Below the pieces are notes generated by a model. It saw only the letters and a list, made by a program, of their open reading frames with translations. It had not been told where the DNA came from and made no database searches. Below, one piece after another: positions 1,176 to 9,406 of a stretch of DNA of 31,060 nt (position 1 is the first letter of the stretch; each line of letters opens with the position of its first letter). Source of the stretch: a virus; the IMG/VR virus record IMGVR_UViG_3300032285_000175, positions 1 to 31,060 of that record. One strand, 5' to 3'. Both the position numbers and the translations under genes were made by a program.

Positions 1176-1404
1176 TATAACTGGTGACTGGATTAAATCT
1201 AAACCTAACTCTGAACAGTTTGAAGAAAACTTTGATCGTATCTTTAGACAAAAGACTGTAGATCCATTACCAAAAGAAACGCCACACAAAATATTAAGAC
1301 AATCACGCATTGACACTGTTGGTCAGAATGGTAATGAAGGACTACACTACGAGTATGAACTTGACAAGTCTACTGGTGAGGTAGTTAAAAAGGATAATCC
1401 GTAG
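1159..1404 (+). CDS. Conserved-type phage hypothetical protein, 81 aa
   Basis: The start at 1159 (MASRNDITGDWI) is chosen because AAGGAG lies 9 bases upstream (1144-1149); an upstream in-frame ATG at 1132 has no such site. The product is charged, with a helical segment (EQFEENFDRIFRQ) and a C-terminal beta-like stretch. Short phage proteins that begin with a similar ASRNDITGD motif are familiar from T7-like and related early regions, but no function is known. It is the last gene before the only real gap of the early block. It converges with pqqA on the other strand, with a hairpin between the two stop codons. Confidence 0.75.
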   Translation: MASRNDITGDWIKSKPNSEQFEENFDRIFRQKTVDPLPKETPHKILRQSRIDTVGQNGNEGLHYEYELDKSTGEVVKKDNP

Positions 1405-1407
1405 AAC

Positions 1408-1432
1408 GCAGAGCAACGCGAAGGTTGCCTGC
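1408..1432. other. Hairpin between two convergent genes
   Basis: GCAG-A-GCAAC pairs with GTTGCCTGC across the loop GCGAAG: a 9-bp, GC-rich stem with one bulged A in otherwise AT-rich DNA. It sits 3 bases after the stop of the + strand gene (1404) and 17 bases beyond the stop of pqqA on the - strand. Its position suggests a two-way transcript end or RNA-stabilising structure. No T-run follows on either strand, so it is not a classical intrinsic terminator. Confidence 0.45.
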
Positions 1433-1449
1433 ATTCGTACGTTATGCAA

Positions 1450-1521
1450 TTACTTATTCATTACATACATTGTAACTTCAAAGCCAAAACGCATTTCTGT
1501 CGCTGCTGGTTTAGTCCACAT
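1450..1521 (-). CDS. pqqA: PqqA: PQQ precursor peptide, 23 aa
   Basis: Reading the - strand from 1521 gives a 23-codon gene that begins MWTKPA and contains R11-F-G-F-E15-V-T-M-Y19, ending MNK. Cellular PqqA peptides are usually 22-24 residues, begin MxW or MW, have a K-P-A/S segment and carry the G-x-E-V-T-x-Y core. In PQQ synthesis the chaperone PqqD presents PqqA to the radical-SAM enzyme PqqE, which links Glu15 to Tyr19; both residues are present at these exact numbers. The start has AAGGAG (1529-1534) seven bases upstream. The gene runs opposite to all its neighbours. No pqqB-E genes are visible, so the peptide would rely on host enzymes. PQQ serves periplasmic methanol, alcohol and sugar dehydrogenases. 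Assignment by eye is strong; the benefit to the phage is inferred. Confidence 0.9.
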   Translation of the reverse strand: MWTKPAATEMRFGFEVTMYVMNK

Positions 1522-1568: not shown

Positions 1569-1597
1569 ATTATACTCTAGTTTTACAATTATGTCGT
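1569..1597 (-). promoter_or_regulatory. Sigma-70-like promoter for pqqA
   Basis: On the - strand there is a perfect TATAAT (1574 to 1569). With a 17-base spacer the -35 hexamer is ACGACA (1597 to 1592), which matches TTGACA at four of six bases. A perfect TTGACA also occurs slightly further up (1604 to 1599) but at 24 bases, too far for normal use. A start about 7 bases below the -10 box would give a short leader into the AAGGAG site. This would make pqqA an independent transcription unit. Confidence 0.5.
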
Positions 1598-1630: not shown

Positions 1631-2323
1631 ATGAGTAAATTCATTGGTCATATACCATGTCCAAGTTGTGGTAGCAAAGATAATTTGGCTGAGTATGACG
1701 ATCACTTGTTTTGTTTTGGTTGTAAATATTGGAAATCTAAGAACACAATTGAAGGAGTTCGCAGAAGATTGATGACAATCGACGAAGAATGTCCTAACGA
1801 TTTACATTTAGATTTAGTACTTGACATTCCCAAAGAACCTATGCAATGGTTATTACAATACGAGATAACAAGTAAAGATTGTGATACCTATCACATTACT
1901 TGGTGTCCGTCAAGAAAAGCTTTAGTGCTTGTGTATTTACCACACTATTACCAAGCTAGAAACTTTGGTGATGGTCCTAAGTATATGTCTAAAGGAAACA
2001 AACCCTTGCTATTCTATGGTAACAGTGATACAATAGTTGTAGTGGAAGATATTTTATCTGCAATTAAAGTTAGTAAGTCTAATAATAGTTACACAGGGTG
2101 TCCTCTACTAGGTTCAAGTATGCCTCTAAAACTTACAGAAACTATCCTAGAACGCTTTAAAAAGGTTTGGATATGGTTGGATAGGGATAAGGCAATTGAC
2201 GCTGTTAAAATGGCTAGAAATTTAAAACAAAAGGGTATTGATGCTGATGTTATTATTACAGATAAAGATCCTAAAGAGTATAGCACATACGATATAGACT
2301 TGATTATAAAGGATAAACAATGA
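1631..2323 (+). CDS. DNA primase (T7 gp4 primase-half type)
   Basis: The 230-aa protein lays RNA primers for lagging-strand synthesis. An N-terminal zinc ribbon has C10-x2-C13 and C28-x2-C31 (PCPSCGS, CFGCKYW), as in the template-recognition domain of T7 gp4. A TOPRIM core follows: E139 in IVVVEDILSAIKV and D184/D186 in VWIWLDRDKA. The length equals the primase half of T7 gp4; the helicase half is a separate gene two genes downstream, so the T7 fusion is unlinked here. The start ATG has AAGGAT eight bases upstream, and the last bases overlap the next gene. It begins the replication module right after the pqqA gap. Confidence 0.92.
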   Translation: MSKFIGHIPCPSCGSKDNLAEYDDHLFCFGCKYWKSKNTIEGVRRRLMTIDEECPNDLHLDLVLDIPKEPMQWLLQYEITSKDCDTYHITWCPSRKALVLVYLPHYYQARNFGDGPKYMSKGNKPLLFYGNSDTIVVVEDILSAIKVSKSNNSYTGCPLLGSSMPLKLTETILERFKKVWIWLDRDKAIDAVKMARNLKQKGIDADVIITDKDPKEYSTYDIDLIIKDKQ

Positions 2324-2561: not shown

Positions 2562-3803
2562 ATGGTAGAGAAACAAATAATTAAATTGTTTTGTGAAGAT
2601 ATAAATCTCTTTACAAAGTATTACAAGTATGTTAACATTAATTATATAAAGATTAATTATAATGATATATATAAATTATTTAATATAGTATCATTATACT
2701 ATAGTAAATATAATACTAGTACTACTATTACTAATAATGAATTAGAGATATTCTATAATAGTAATTACTTATTACGTGATCAAGAACGTAAAGAGTTAAG
2801 TCTTCTTATAGAAGACATCTTTAATCAGGATACTACTAACAAAGATATCATAGTGTCATTACTAGAAGAGCATCGTAGACGCTCACTAGCAGGACAAGTT
2901 GCTATGACGGCTTTAGATGTAGAGAGTGGTAAGAAATCTACTGAGGATCTTCTTAACTTATTCAATGAGTTTGAACATCAAGAAGTTGAATCAGAAGAAA
3001 TCAAACCTGTTGATATGGACTTGGAGAACTTGTATGACACACAGATATCTACACCTGGCTTACGCTGGCGTATTGATTGGCTTAATAAGAGTCTTGGATC
3101 TCTTCGTAAAGGTGACTTTGGTTTTATCTTTGCTAGGCCTGAGACGGGCAAGACTACATTCCTTGCGAGTGAAATTACTCATATGGTCTCTCAAACTGAC
3201 GGTGATATACTTTGGTTTAACAATGAAGAACAAGGCAAGAAAGTTGGCATTAGAGTGTATCAAGCAACGCTTGGATTAACACTTAAAGAGTTGTTTGAAG
3301 ACAAAGCTAGAAACAAAGAACGATACAATACAATAACAGGTAATCGTATTCACATTCTAGACTTTGAAGATTCAAGTAATAAAGCTCGTATAGAAACAGT
3401 ACTTAAACAATATAACCCTGCATTAATTATCTTCGATCAGATAGATAAAATCAGGGGATTTAAAGGAGAAAGAAATGATCTTGAACTTAAACAAATTTAT
3501 CAATGGGCTCGTGAGATTGCTAAAACCTACGCACCAGTCATCGCAGTGTCGCAAGCAAGTGGCGAAGCGGAAGGCAAGTTATTTTTAACAATGGATCAAG
3601 TTGACGGATCCAAAACGGCTAAGCAAGGTGAGGCCGATTGGATCCTAGGAATAGGTAAAGAACAAGATAACTTAAGTCGTAGTAGATATTTTAATATCTG
3701 CAAGAACAAGTTAGTAGGTGACACTGACACTTTACCTGACTTAAGACATGGTTCTACACAAGTACTAATTAAAGCGGATATAGCAAGGTATGTCGATATC
3801 TAA
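2562..3803 (+). CDS. Replicative DNA helicase (DnaB/RecA fold)
   Basis: This 413-aa protein is the ring helicase that unwinds DNA ahead of the polymerase. Walker A is ARPETGKTTF (K197, T198) and Walker B is ALIIFDQID (D292); WFNNEEQGKKVGIRVYQA is the segment after Walker A typical of DnaB-type enzymes. The N-terminal ~150 residues are helical and divergent and contain an unusually AT-rich stretch of codons (Asn, Tyr, Ile, Lys) at about 2630-2760. The start ATG is preceded by AAGGGAG. The zinc ribbon and TOPRIM domains sit in the separate primase upstream. Assignment is firm. Confidence 0.92.
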   Translation: MVEKQIIKLFCEDINLFTKYYKYVNINYIKINYNDIYKLFNIVSLYYSKYNTSTTITNNELEIFYNSNYLLRDQERKELSLLIEDIFNQDTTNKDIIVSLLEEHRRRSLAGQVAMTALDVESGKKSTEDLLNLFNEFEHQEVESEEIKPVDMDLENLYDTQISTPGLRWRIDWLNKSLGSLRKGDFGFIFARPETGKTTFLASEITHMVSQTDGDILWFNNEEQGKKVGIRVYQATLGLTLKELFEDKARNKERYNTITGNRIHILDFEDSSNKARIETVLKQYNPALIIFDQIDKIRGFKGERNDLELKQIYQWAREIAKTYAPVIAVSQASGEAEGKLFLTMDQVDGSKTAKQGEADWILGIGKEQDNLSRSRYFNICKNKLVGDTDTLPDLRHGSTQVLIKADIARYVDI

Positions 3804-3933: not shown

Positions 3934-4082
3934 GTATAGAAACAGTGTTACTAGTTAGATCAGACTTGACTGCTGAAGAGATAGGTGATATACTAGACTT
4001 AGTAGGACCTAATGAAACTTTGTTAGATGCAGTAAATAAATTCTATCCACTAAACCAAGGAACAGGCGATTGCGCAGCTTAA
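3930..4082 (+). CDS. Hypothetical small protein with TTG start, 50 aa
   Basis: The TTG at 3930 has GAGGAG (3916-3921) eight bases upstream and overlaps the preceding TGA. The 50-aa product (SIETVLLVRSDLTAEEIGDILDLVGPNETLL...) looks like a compact helical protein with a repeated LLDLVG-like pattern. Its 3' end carries the ribosome-binding site (AAGGA) and the TTG start of the polymerase gene, so the two overlap by 13 bases. It is not a known family. Good upstream signal and dense overlaps make it likely to be translated. Confidence 0.65.
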   Translation: MSIETVLLVRSDLTAEEIGDILDLVGPNETLLDAVNKFYPLNQGTGDCAA

Positions 4083-5239
4083 TACTAGATGTTGAAACAA
4101 CCATAAGCAATAAAGGCAATCCATTTGATGAGAGGAATAAACTTTGTTATGTTGGACTCTATAGTACTGATGGGACTTATCTATATGACATTGATTATAG
4201 CGGAAATCCTAACCGAGAACGACTTGACGCTATACAAAGAAGCATCGACAGTCACGATATTATTGTTGGCTTTAACATCAAGTTTGACTTGCATTGGTTA
4301 AGACGCTATGGAATTAACTTTATGGATAAGCGTATTTGGGATTGTCAGTTGGCTCATTTTATACTTACGGGCCAACAACATCCCTATCCAAGTCTCAATG
4401 GCGTTGCTGACAGCTATGCTTTGGGTAGTAAACTTGATATCATTGCTACTGATTATTGGAAGAATGGGATAGATACTGACAAGATTCCTAAAGATTTGTT
4501 AGAAGATTATCTTACACAAGATTTGCTTTTAACGCAAAAAGTATACGACAAACAGATGGAAGAATTTGCAGCTAGCGCAAAACAAATGCAAAGACTTATC
4601 AGTTTACATAACCAAGATTTATTAATATTACAGGAGATGGAATACAATGGTCTTAGATTTAATGAAGCAGAGTGTATTAGACTTGGGCAGGAAACTAAAA
4701 AAGATATTGAACGTATTGATTCAATTCTTTACACTTATCATAACCTTCCTGAGTTTAATGCTAATAGCACTGAACATATTAGTGCTCTTCTCTATGGGGG
4801 ATCTATTAAAGTCAGACGTCAAGAAGTTGTTGGTACTTTTAAAACAGGGGCTAGAGCGGGCTTACCAAAAAGCCAATGGAAAGAATATAACATAGACTTT
4901 GAACGCATAGTCAATCCTTTAAAGGGTTCTGAACTAGAGAAAGAAGGTTACTTCTCTAACGATGAACAGACATTACGAACACTCAAAGGTAGTAAAAAAG
5001 CTAAAGAACTAATAGAACTTATCTTAGCTAGAGCTACACTAGAGAAACGATTGTCTGCATACTACGAAGGACTAGTAGAACTACGCAAGACTATGAACTG
5101 GAAAGAAGGAATGTTACACGGAGTTCTTAATCAATGTGTTGCTAAGACAGGTAGACTATCGTCAACTAAACCTAACTTACAGAACTTTGATGGAGAAATT
5201 AAACAATTATTTGGGAGTAGATATGCTGTTGCAAGCTGA
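4070..5239 (+). CDS. DNA polymerase A, N-terminal part (3'-5' exonuclease and thumb)
   Basis: This 389-aa frame holds the proofreading exonuclease and the beginning of the polymerase domain. Exo I is D7-x-E9 (LILDVETT), Exo II is GFNIKFD (D73), and Exo III is Y147-x3-D151 (YLTQD). The last part has the family A pre-palm motif TGRLSSTKPNLQN. The frame then stops at TGA (5237-5239), directly before motif A. That motif and the rest of the polymerase continue in the +1 frame in the next gene. The start is TTG (4070) with AAGGA eight bases upstream. Both parts together (about 628 aa) make a normal-length phage family A polymerase, so nothing seems lost but the frame. Confidence 0.9.
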   Translation: MRSLILDVETTISNKGNPFDERNKLCYVGLYSTDGTYLYDIDYSGNPNRERLDAIQRSIDSHDIIVGFNIKFDLHWLRRYGINFMDKRIWDCQLAHFILTGQQHPYPSLNGVADSYALGSKLDIIATDYWKNGIDTDKIPKDLLEDYLTQDLLLTQKVYDKQMEEFAASAKQMQRLISLHNQDLLILQEMEYNGLRFNEAECIRLGQETKKDIERIDSILYTYHNLPEFNANSTEHISALLYGGSIKVRRQEVVGTFKTGARAGLPKSQWKEYNIDFERIVNPLKGSELEKEGYFSNDEQTLRTLKGSKKAKELIELILARATLEKRLSAYYEGLVELRKTMNWKEGMLHGVLNQCVAKTGRLSSTKPNLQNFDGEIKQLFGSRYAVAS

Positions 5240-5942
5240 TGCTAAAGCACTAGAATGGGTATGTGCAGCTTATCTTTCTCAAGACGAAACTGCTATTAAG
5301 GAGATATGGAATAATGTCGATCAACATACCGATAATCAGAGTCGTTTTGGCCTTCCTTCTCGTCTCATTGCTAAGACATTTGTTTTCCGTCTCATTTACG
5401 GAGGCAGTGCTTACAGTTATGCTAATGATCCAAACTTTGCGGATACCAGTAAAGTAGAATCTTTTTGGCAGAATGTCATTGATGAGTTCTATAAGAAGTA
5501 TAGTGGCTTAGGTAAATGGCATAAAGAGATTGTTGAAAAAGCTATGAGAGATAGAAAGATAACTATGCCTACAGGGAGGGTATACAATTATGAACCAGAA
5601 ATAAGATACGGTAAAGCTAAATGGCCCCGCACACGAATCCTTAACTATCCAGTGCAAGGACTCGGTGCTGATTTGATGGCTATAGCAAGAGTGAGTTTAT
5701 CTAATAGACTAAAGAAAGTAGAAGGTGCTAAGTTAATTAATACTGTTCACGATTCGATTATAGTTGACTTTGATGAAAAACTATGCGATAATAATAGTAT
5801 AGTTAAATTAGTAGATGGTTGTTTTACAGATGTCCCTCTTAACTTTAAGAAGTTATTTGGGGTTGATTTTAATCTTCCTATGCGGGTTGAATGTCAAGTT
5901 GGACCTAATTGGGGTAACATGGAGATAGTTAATGCTAATTAA
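5223..5942 (+). CDS. DNA polymerase A, C-terminal part (palm and fingers)
   Basis: The frame from ATG 5223 gives 239 aa with all polymerase motifs: motif A QADAKALEW (D6), motif B R47-x3-K51-x3-F55-x3-Y59-G60 (the O helix) and motif C VHDS (D177). The residue at the position of E. coli Phe762 is Phe55. GGGAG lies five bases upstream of this ATG, so separate translation is possible. A longer in-frame opening from 5136 reads the other frame of the first part and is not a protein extension. The gene overlaps the first part by 17 bases. The product must act with the exonuclease part, either as a two-chain enzyme or as a +1 frameshift fusion. Confidence 0.88.
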   Translation: MLLQADAKALEWVCAAYLSQDETAIKEIWNNVDQHTDNQSRFGLPSRLIAKTFVFRLIYGGSAYSYANDPNFADTSKVESFWQNVIDEFYKKYSGLGKWHKEIVEKAMRDRKITMPTGRVYNYEPEIRYGKAKWPRTRILNYPVQGLGADLMAIARVSLSNRLKKVEGAKLINTVHDSIIVDFDEKLCDNNSIVKLVDGCFTDVPLNFKKLFGVDFNLPMRVECQVGPNWGNMEIVNAN

Positions 5943-7911: not shown

Positions 7912-8267
7912 TGGAGTGGACTGATGGCAGAATTAAAGGATTTATTACGTCCGTGTTGCGGGGCGGATACAGACGTTGGCCTCCTAAATACGAAACGCTT
8001 AAGGAAGCACAAACTGGTAAGAAGATTAACGAACTTACTAAACGCATGGGTATGCACTATAAATGTAAAAAGTGTAAAGGTGAATACCCTGCTAAACAAG
8101 TACAAGTTGATCATATCAAACCAGTGGTTGATGTTAAAGTTGGGTTTACATCTTGGGATGACTTCATTGAAAGACTGTATTGTGGCAAAGAAAACTTGCA
8201 AGTCTTGTGCAAAGAATGCCACGACAAGAAAACTCTAAAAGAGAAAAAGCAAAGGATAAAGAAATGA
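7911..8267 (+). CDS. HNH endonuclease
   Basis: The 118-aa protein has a compact HNH core: zinc knuckles C52-x2-C55 and C100-x2-C103, the DH pair D67/H68 in VQVDHIKPVV, N95 in ENLQVLC, and H104. The short length and lack of a DNA-recognition extension resemble the single-domain HNH proteins free-standing in many podoviruses rather than an intron-borne homing enzyme. It is translationally coupled on both sides (TAATG before, ATGA after). Its role could be host DNA degradation or DNA processing. It is not next to the split polymerase, so it is not an obvious cause of that split. Confidence 0.9.
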   Translation: MEWTDGRIKGFITSVLRGGYRRWPPKYETLKEAQTGKKINELTKRMGMHYKCKKCKGEYPAKQVQVDHIKPVVDVKVGFTSWDDFIERLYCGKENLQVLCKECHDKKTLKEKKQRIKK

Positions 8268-9406
8268 ATACAGTAGAATTGTTTAAAGATCATAAGTATG
8301 TACATTTAAAAGATTTCTTACCTAAACATACTTGTGAAGAACTTACTACTGAACTTAAACGTTTAGTTGCAGAAAACAAAACAGTTAATGATCCACAATG
8401 TCCTTTGTCTCAAGCAGTACATGGTGCAGAAGCTTTTGATAGACTACTTGAATACCTTACACCTTACTTTGAAAAAGCTAGTGGACTTAAACTATTCCCT
8501 ACATACTCATACGCTAGGTTATATGATACTCAAGGTGAAGAACTAAAGAATCATCGTGATCGTCCTGCATGTGAAATTAGTGCTACTCTTACATTAGGGT
8601 TTGAGGGTGATGTATGGCCTATTTACATGGGTGACAATGAAGATAAATCAAATTCATCTGAAATTAAAATGGAAGTTGGGGATGCTGTTATGTATCGTGG
8701 TATGGATAAATACCATTGGCGTGAACCTTATACTGAAGGTAAGTGGCAAGCCCAAGTATTCTTACACTATGTAGATCAAGATGGTCCTCATGCTGAATGG
8801 AAATATGACAAGCGTGAATCATTAGGTATCAGTAAAACTAATACACAAGTACAGCAATTTGATGTATGCTATGTAATGAAAAACGCTGTATCTAATTCAT
8901 TTTGTGATAATCTTATTAAAGAGTATTCTAAAGATGAAGTAGAAAAAGAACAACCTTTTATTGGTGATGGTAGAGATCCTAATGTAAACATTAATCTTGA
9001 CATTAGAAATGTATTAAGACTTCCTTTACCAATGAATCAAGGTATTGGTGCTACATTAACATCAACTGCTTTAAATATAAACCATCAATTTTGGCAATAT
9101 AATGTAACACATTCTAATCAAACAGAGTTTCTTATGTATGATGTTAATGGTAAGTATGAAGCACATGTTGATACTTTCCATCAATTAGGAAATGAAACTC
9201 GTAAACTAACAGCACTAGCTATTCTTAATGATGACTTTGAAGGTGGTAAGTTTTATATTATGAATAGCCATGAAAAGATTTACCCACCACAAGAGAAAGG
9301 TGATATAATTGTATTCCCTTCTTTTATGGTGCATGGTGTAGAACCAGTAACAAAAGGTAAACGATATACAGTAGTAACATGGATGGTCGGTCCATACTTT
9401 AAATAG
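8264..9406 (+). CDS. Double-domain 2-oxoglutarate/Fe(II) oxygenase
   Basis: The start at 8264 overlaps the HNH stop (ATGA) with AAGGA seven bases upstream, giving 380 aa. The C-terminal half is a clear 2OG-Fe(II) hydroxylase: H301-x-D303, H357 and R367 (HVDTFHQ ... FPSFMVHGVEPVTKGKR). The N-terminal half repeats the layout: H97-x-D99 and H151 (NHRDRPACEISATLTL ... YRGMDKYHWREPY), but the usual 2OG-binding Arg is replaced by the sequence GKW, with K160 the possible substitute. Such enzymes hydroxylate protein, nucleic-acid or small substrates and are common in marine phages, usually as single domains. The substrate is unknown. It lies between the HNH nuclease and a DEDD exonuclease. Confidence 0.88.
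   Translation: MNTVELFKDHKYVHLKDFLPKHTCEELTTELKRLVAENKTVNDPQCPLSQAVHGAEAFDRLLEYLTPYFEKASGLKLFPTYSYARLYDTQGEELKNHRDRPACEISATLTLGFEGDVWPIYMGDNEDKSNSSEIKMEVGDAVMYRGMDKYHWREPYTEGKWQAQVFLHYVDQDGPHAEWKYDKRESLGISKTNTQVQQFDVCYVMKNAVSNSFCDNLIKEYSKDEVEKEQPFIGDGRDPNVNINLDIRNVLRLPLPMNQGIGATLTSTALNINHQFWQYNVTHSNQTEFLMYDVNGKYEAHVDTFHQLGNETRKLTALAILNDDFEGGKFYIMNSHEKIYPPQEKGDIIVFPSFMVHGVEPVTKGKRYTVVTWMVGPYFK

Follow-up and report, generated by a model that had tools for sequence, protein, structure and literature searches.

A phage-borne gene for PqqA, the precursor peptide of PQQ, was reported in 2020 in the Lake Baikal Methylophilaceae phage VP_266, where it was proposed to be an auxiliary metabolic gene (AMG) for methanol oxidation (PMC7678222); viral pqqA also appears as a list entry in PMC13188868. 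In bacteria, one methylotroph possesses five pqqA copies that are expressed differently, and a cell-free extract turns added PqqA into PQQ (PMC9851590); PMC7936290 cites pqqA overexpression as raising PQQ in Gluconobacter. Publications on the phages Melnitz, MEP401, and MEP301 make no mention of phage PQQ genes, within a literature scope that took in subscription journals in part. Here, we describe a pqqA gene in the window, a 31,060-nucleotide stretch of viral DNA (IMG/VR record IMGVR_UViG_3300032285_000175, positions 1 to 31,060) in which a PqqA frame had been proposed from the letters alone (the original prediction).

Identification of pqqA in the window

A single PqqA-like motif was found within the 31,060 bases, in the frame at positions 1450 to 1521 on the minus strand. 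The frame consists of 23 codons and a stop and translates as MWTKPAATEMRFGFEVTMYVMNK, a 23-residue peptide in which the cross-link pair of the E-[VI]-T-x-Y core is present as Glu15 and Tyr19. The peptide scored 42.4 bits against the Pfam PqqA family (PF08042; curated cutoff, 21.1) and 40.4 bits against the NCBIfam PqqA equivalog (TIGR02107; cutoff, 20), with approximately the whole length matched in each case. The translation and both scores bear out the original prediction of a 23-codon PqqA with Glu15 and Tyr19 that should match a PqqA profile above noise. In the proposed comparison with PqqA of Methylophilales hosts, the window peptide was letter-identical to PqqA of Methylophilaceae hosts, with 16 identical copies among the genome loci. 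A search of solved structures with this very short query returned no match. A chance frame as the origin of 1450 to 1521 was ruled out by the profile scores, the selection described below, and the presence of the gene in at least 155 contigs; the frame is a bona fide pqqA. Because the peptide is identical to host PqqA, it is likely that PqqE and PqqD can cross-link it and that it can be converted to PQQ.

Genetic setting, promoter, and stem-loop

pqqA occupies a 226-bp gap between an open reading frame (ORF) that ends at 1404 and the DNA primase gene (1631 to 2323, plus strand), its divergent neighbor. It had been described as antisense to the early operon; the opposite direction was confirmed, but the gene overlaps none of the early genes. 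The predicted ribosome-binding and promoter sequences of its own were both located on the minus strand, with the Shine-Dalgarno sequence AAGGAG at 1534 to 1529, 7 nt upstream of the ATG, and the -10 box TATAAT at 1574 to 1569; a -35-like ACGACA (1592 to 1597, minus strand) is separated from the latter by a 17-nt spacer. The flank of pqqA is largely unconserved in the window's lineage, with the TATAAT box >90% conserved. Among the matches listed, this box was found 5' of pqqA in 43% of viral copies versus 3% of host copies, and because it is so rare in the latter, phage pqqA seems to have been released from host control.

A stem-loop lies 3' of the stop codon (1400 to 1441, minus strand); it has no T-run and is a putative terminator at most. 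The 70-nt stretch at this site folds at -23.3 kcal/mol (z score, -4.07), and no base pair had both sides altered, so that the structure is supported by energy and conservation and not by covariation. Over 158 nonredundant viral copies among the matches listed, the mean folding z score 3' of the gene was -2.9, based on mononucleotide shuffles. No Rfam match was found in the window. A moron-type cassette, with its own promoter and terminator around a gene set among unrelated genes, might be suspected from the lineage-conserved promoter and the hairpins after viral pqqA genes, but the window hairpin lacks the T-run. Moreover, the MEP401 gene heads an operon, and the promoter-like region upstream is also present in a pqqA-less relative (G045).

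The carrier phage and its likely host

The window encodes a primase, a helicase, a split DNA polymerase, an exonuclease, a ribonucleotide reductase, a lysozyme, and tail proteins. Its nearest isolated relatives are the Methylophilales phages MEP401 and MEP402, with a helicase identity of 63%. As these isolates infect OM43 bacteria, the host of the window phage is most likely a member of the Methylophilaceae, and the methylotroph host that had been suggested is supported. pqqA is flanked by phage replication genes, as expected of an AMG in a real phage genome, and host contamination as its source was ruled out by complete isolate genomes that carry pqqA and by its viral neighbors. Among the window proteins scanned, none was recognized as a terminase, portal, or major capsid protein, and several relatives are 43 to 46 kb in length; the 31-kb record is therefore probably incomplete.

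Several other features of the window were recorded. The DNA polymerase is divided between two ORFs (4070 to 5942), and a small ORF (5263 to 5457) lies close to where they meet, an arrangement similar to that of gp13, gp14, and gp15 in MEP401. A 408-residue protein (8180 to 9406) has a C-terminal 2OG-Fe(II) oxygenase domain and ferrochelatase-labeled PHROG matches, and a DUF5856 protein is encoded near the contig end (29845 to 30222).

Distribution of pqqA in phage collections

Using the peptide as a tblastn query against a collection of 50,697 phage records, 12 matching records were identified, 10 of which are methylophages or their relatives: Venkman, P19250A, MEP301, MEP401, MEP402, four Melnitz variants, and an uncultured genome with a terminase that shares 74% identity with that of Venkman. 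These 10 carriers span different phage groups, such as Zobellviridae and Kyanoviridae, and represent this collection, not all methylophages (MEP431-434, HIM624-A, and Venkman EXVC038S are unconfirmed in it). The two remaining records bear the name Acinetobacter phage. One of them, "Acinetobacter phage MD-2021a" (CAKLQF020000010.1, L129), was rejected as a phage carrier, being a bacterial contig that contains ppk and the entire pqqABCDE cluster, and was used solely as the source of PqqB-E queries.

The suspicion that so short a gene is widely missed proved justified, as none of the 10 carrier records annotates pqqA and PHROGs holds no family for PqqA. Five of the records have no annotated feature at the gene, and the two others inspected (Melnitz EXVC044M, MW202481) have a hypothetical protein annotated on the strand opposite pqqA.

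In IMG/VR, the pattern G-F-E-[VI]-T-M-Y was present at 120 loci or more, and all 120 listed are proper PqqA frames. The pattern T-E-M-R-F-G-F, which is blind to Glu15 and Tyr19, likewise matched at least 120 loci, with 117 of the 120 listed being PqqA; the other three were discarded as chance frames inside unrelated genes. Combined, the two patterns identified at least 155 contigs with PqqA. One 50.8-kb viral contig, IMGVR_UViG_3300011115_000265 (G070; L522 and neighbors), harbors two pqqA genes, at 32,544 and 45,380. A further type of viral PqqA, MW.KP.Y...RLGFE[VI]TMYF, was observed at eight loci (L005, L013, L015, L021, L028, L040, L048, and L055), suggesting that these phages infect PQQ-using hosts other than typical Methylophilaceae. 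For the divergent viral types, no match exceeded 78% identity in 369 genomes of a single class.

Selection on the peptide

Relatives forming the window's lineage were collected by similarity to its DnaB-like helicase (2562 to 3803, plus strand), a query that does not select for pqqA, giving 39 loci and, with the window, 40 frames representing 29 unique genes. Across this set, the peptide is almost invariant. Minor-allele fractions were 0.043, 0.021, and 0.213 at codon positions 1, 2, and 3, respectively, and pN/pS was 0.10; no copy with an altered Glu15 or Tyr19 was found at the lineage loci by tblastn with the peptide, a search that makes no demand on either residue. The synonymous bias and the retention of both residues are those anticipated for a genuine gene, and pqqA is under strong purifying selection in the window's lineage. 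Across 171 unique viral 23-codon genes among the matches listed, a set that was partly motif selected, pN/pS was 0.17 with a pS of 0.59, and Glu15 and Tyr19 were invariant. Both residues were also kept in all 117 listed PqqA frames recovered with the pattern blind to them.

Prevalence and genomic position

Prevalence was determined among records of approximately 19 kb or more, many of which are fragments. PqqA was encoded by 22 of the 23 relatives identified by the window helicase, by five of the seven identified by the Venkman terminase, and by two of the 12 identified by the MEP401 terminase. In a near full-length MEP401 relative of 42.8 kb, the flanks align and the pqqA stretch is missing at that place. 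As most of the MEP401-terminase relatives, including this genome, are without the gene, pqqA is not essential to all such phages. No PqqA match was obtained by tblastn in MW202796 either; this complete uncultured genome has a helicase with 62% identity.

In the window's lineage, pqqA usually lies approximately 110 bp from the primase gene and in the opposite direction. Several relatives have this primase-side site free and carry pqqA elsewhere in the genome; thus, the presence of the gene is retained while its position changes. In L482, the primase gene follows almost directly after the preceding ORF, with the region too diverged for an isogenic empty-site comparison. Among the matches listed, 159 nonredundant viral copies fell into 47 groups on the basis of three or more shared flank proteins, a number inflated by short contigs.

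pqq genes in phages and in hosts

No pqqB-E gene was found in the window, the sole match being a 22-residue chance match to pqqC (E value, 0.45). pqqB, pqqC, pqqD, and pqqE were likewise absent near pqqA at all 158 IMG/VR loci and in all seven phage records among the matches listed, and none of the 43 viral records searched whole contained PqqE above the cutoff. That pqqA stands without any other pqq gene, as originally stated for the window, thus extends to the viral loci examined. One of the 43 whole records encodes a PQQ alcohol (methanol) dehydrogenase: the 72-kb viral contig IMGVR_UViG_3300025120_009955 (L053) carries this gene (608 bits) together with pqqA, which agrees with the Lake Baikal report (PMC7678222).

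In the sampled Methylophilaceae genomes, pqqA was present in 149 of 150, with a median of 4 copies and up to 12. Two Methylophilaceae genomes encode PqqE (520.7 and 508.9 bits) and a PQQ alcohol dehydrogenase. pqqB-E genes lie near pqqA at 39 of 119 genome loci, the window phage's own host being assigned from its relatives; in the Methylophilaceae isolate LSUCC0665, none of three pqqA genes adjoins pqqE. The nearest pqqA by DNA, in a putative genome contig, differs at 3 of 72 bases, a length too short for a tree.

Discussion

We propose that phage pqqA is functional and acts as an AMG that supplies a consumable substrate rather than an enzyme, a reading to which we assign a probability of roughly three in four. 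The phage would make the PqqA peptide during infection, host PqqD and PqqE would bind it and join Glu15 to Tyr19 by a cross-link, and a host peptidase, PqqB, and PqqC would complete PQQ, with each peptide yielding at most one molecule. PqqA is the sole component of the pathway that is consumed and needs fresh translation, the host enzymes being reusable, and a phage that cuts back transcription in the host would lose the PqqA supply first. Since PqqA is spent one for one while PqqB-E are catalytic, a phage could maintain PQQ synthesis with a single very small gene, 72 bases being enough to restore the supply. The PQQ formed would keep the PQQ-dependent methanol dehydrogenase, through which carbon and energy enter the host's metabolism, active during infection. 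We infer from sequence analysis the expression of the gene, its processing by host enzymes, the higher PQQ level, and the benefit to the phage. The weakest link is why an infected cell would run short of PQQ: dehydrogenase-bound PQQ is probably stable, making the need for more within one infection questionable, and the hosts already hold several pqqA copies.

The peptide could instead be a decoy or inhibitor that occupies PqqD and PqqE and lowers host PQQ, either stopping methanol oxidation or sparing S-adenosylmethionine. It contains the full recognition region, substrate in excess could titrate PqqD, and a kinetic effect of this kind is compatible with everything in the sequence. A decoy has no need of reactive Glu15 and Tyr19, yet both are invariant; the peptide is letter-identical to the substrate that the host itself makes; and one phage contig has pqqA together with a PQQ dehydrogenase, making this explanation unlikely. 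The original prediction had ranked supply first and a decoy as its alternative, and we retain that order because the 117 frames drawn with the blind pattern all keep both residues and the peptide is identical to that of the host. The supplied PqqA might also serve an end different from host methanol dehydrogenase: the PQQ could go to a different PQQ enzyme or act, unbound, as a redox compound. PQQ serves several dehydrogenases, and divergent PqqA types occur in other viral contigs, whose hosts may lie outside the typical Methylophilaceae, but the gene of the isolated phages is tied to methylotrophic hosts, whose principal PQQ enzyme is methanol dehydrogenase, and we regard such a use as quite unlikely.

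Two further explanations deny the peptide a role. The many host pqqA copies are a ready source from which so tiny a gene, with its variable location, could jump into phages and be kept for a short time without serving any function; such a neutral passenger is contradicted by the selection data (a pN/pS of 0.10 with saturating synonymous change), by retention in 22 of 23 relatives although the position shifts, and by the conserved promoter, and is very improbable. Selection might otherwise act on the DNA or RNA, as a regulatory RNA, promoter region, or terminator to which the peptide is incidental, given that a conserved promoter and a stem-loop flank the gene. This is hardly credible where changes concentrate at third codon positions and the peptide is kept, where phages whose flanks are unrelated share the conserved peptide, and where the window has no Rfam match.

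With less confidence than in the supply role itself, but still on balance, we favor the view that PqqA supply is a common, near-universal strategy of Methylophilaceae phages, and perhaps of phages of other PQQ-dependent bacteria, which unrelated groups have repeatedly acquired and relocated; it would represent a class of AMG that provides a single-use substrate and is systematically missed on account of its 72-base length. OM43 and LD28 methylotrophs are abundant methanol consumers in marine and lake waters. If carriage of pqqA is routine among the phages of these bacteria, infected cells are probably limited by their PQQ supply, and methanol oxidation would be directly affected by phages. Gene callers and phage family libraries overlook this widespread metabolic gene.

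Compared with known systems, the window gene resembles PqqA of the Methylophilaceae (PF08042, TIGR02107) in its full-length match, its identical 23 residues, and its G-F-E-V-T-M-Y core; it differs in standing alone in a phage genome without pqqB-E and in having a consensus TATAAT promoter that is mostly missing from host copies. Like cyanophage psbA and similar AMGs, pqqA may be a phage copy of a host gene with a fast-consumed product that possibly limits host energy metabolism during infection; psbA, however, encodes a reaction-center protein, and pqqA a consumed 23-residue peptide substrate. Phage PqqA is not wholly unreported, given the Lake Baikal phage (PMC7678222); what seems new is its wide spread over phage groups, its lone-gene form, its relocation, and its invisibility to annotation. 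As in VP_266, pqqA is borne by a methylotroph phage; however, VP_266 is T4-like and also has a methanol dehydrogenase, whereas the window belongs to a smaller phage lineage without the dehydrogenase, and PqqA, noted once in VP_266, is here widespread across phage groups.
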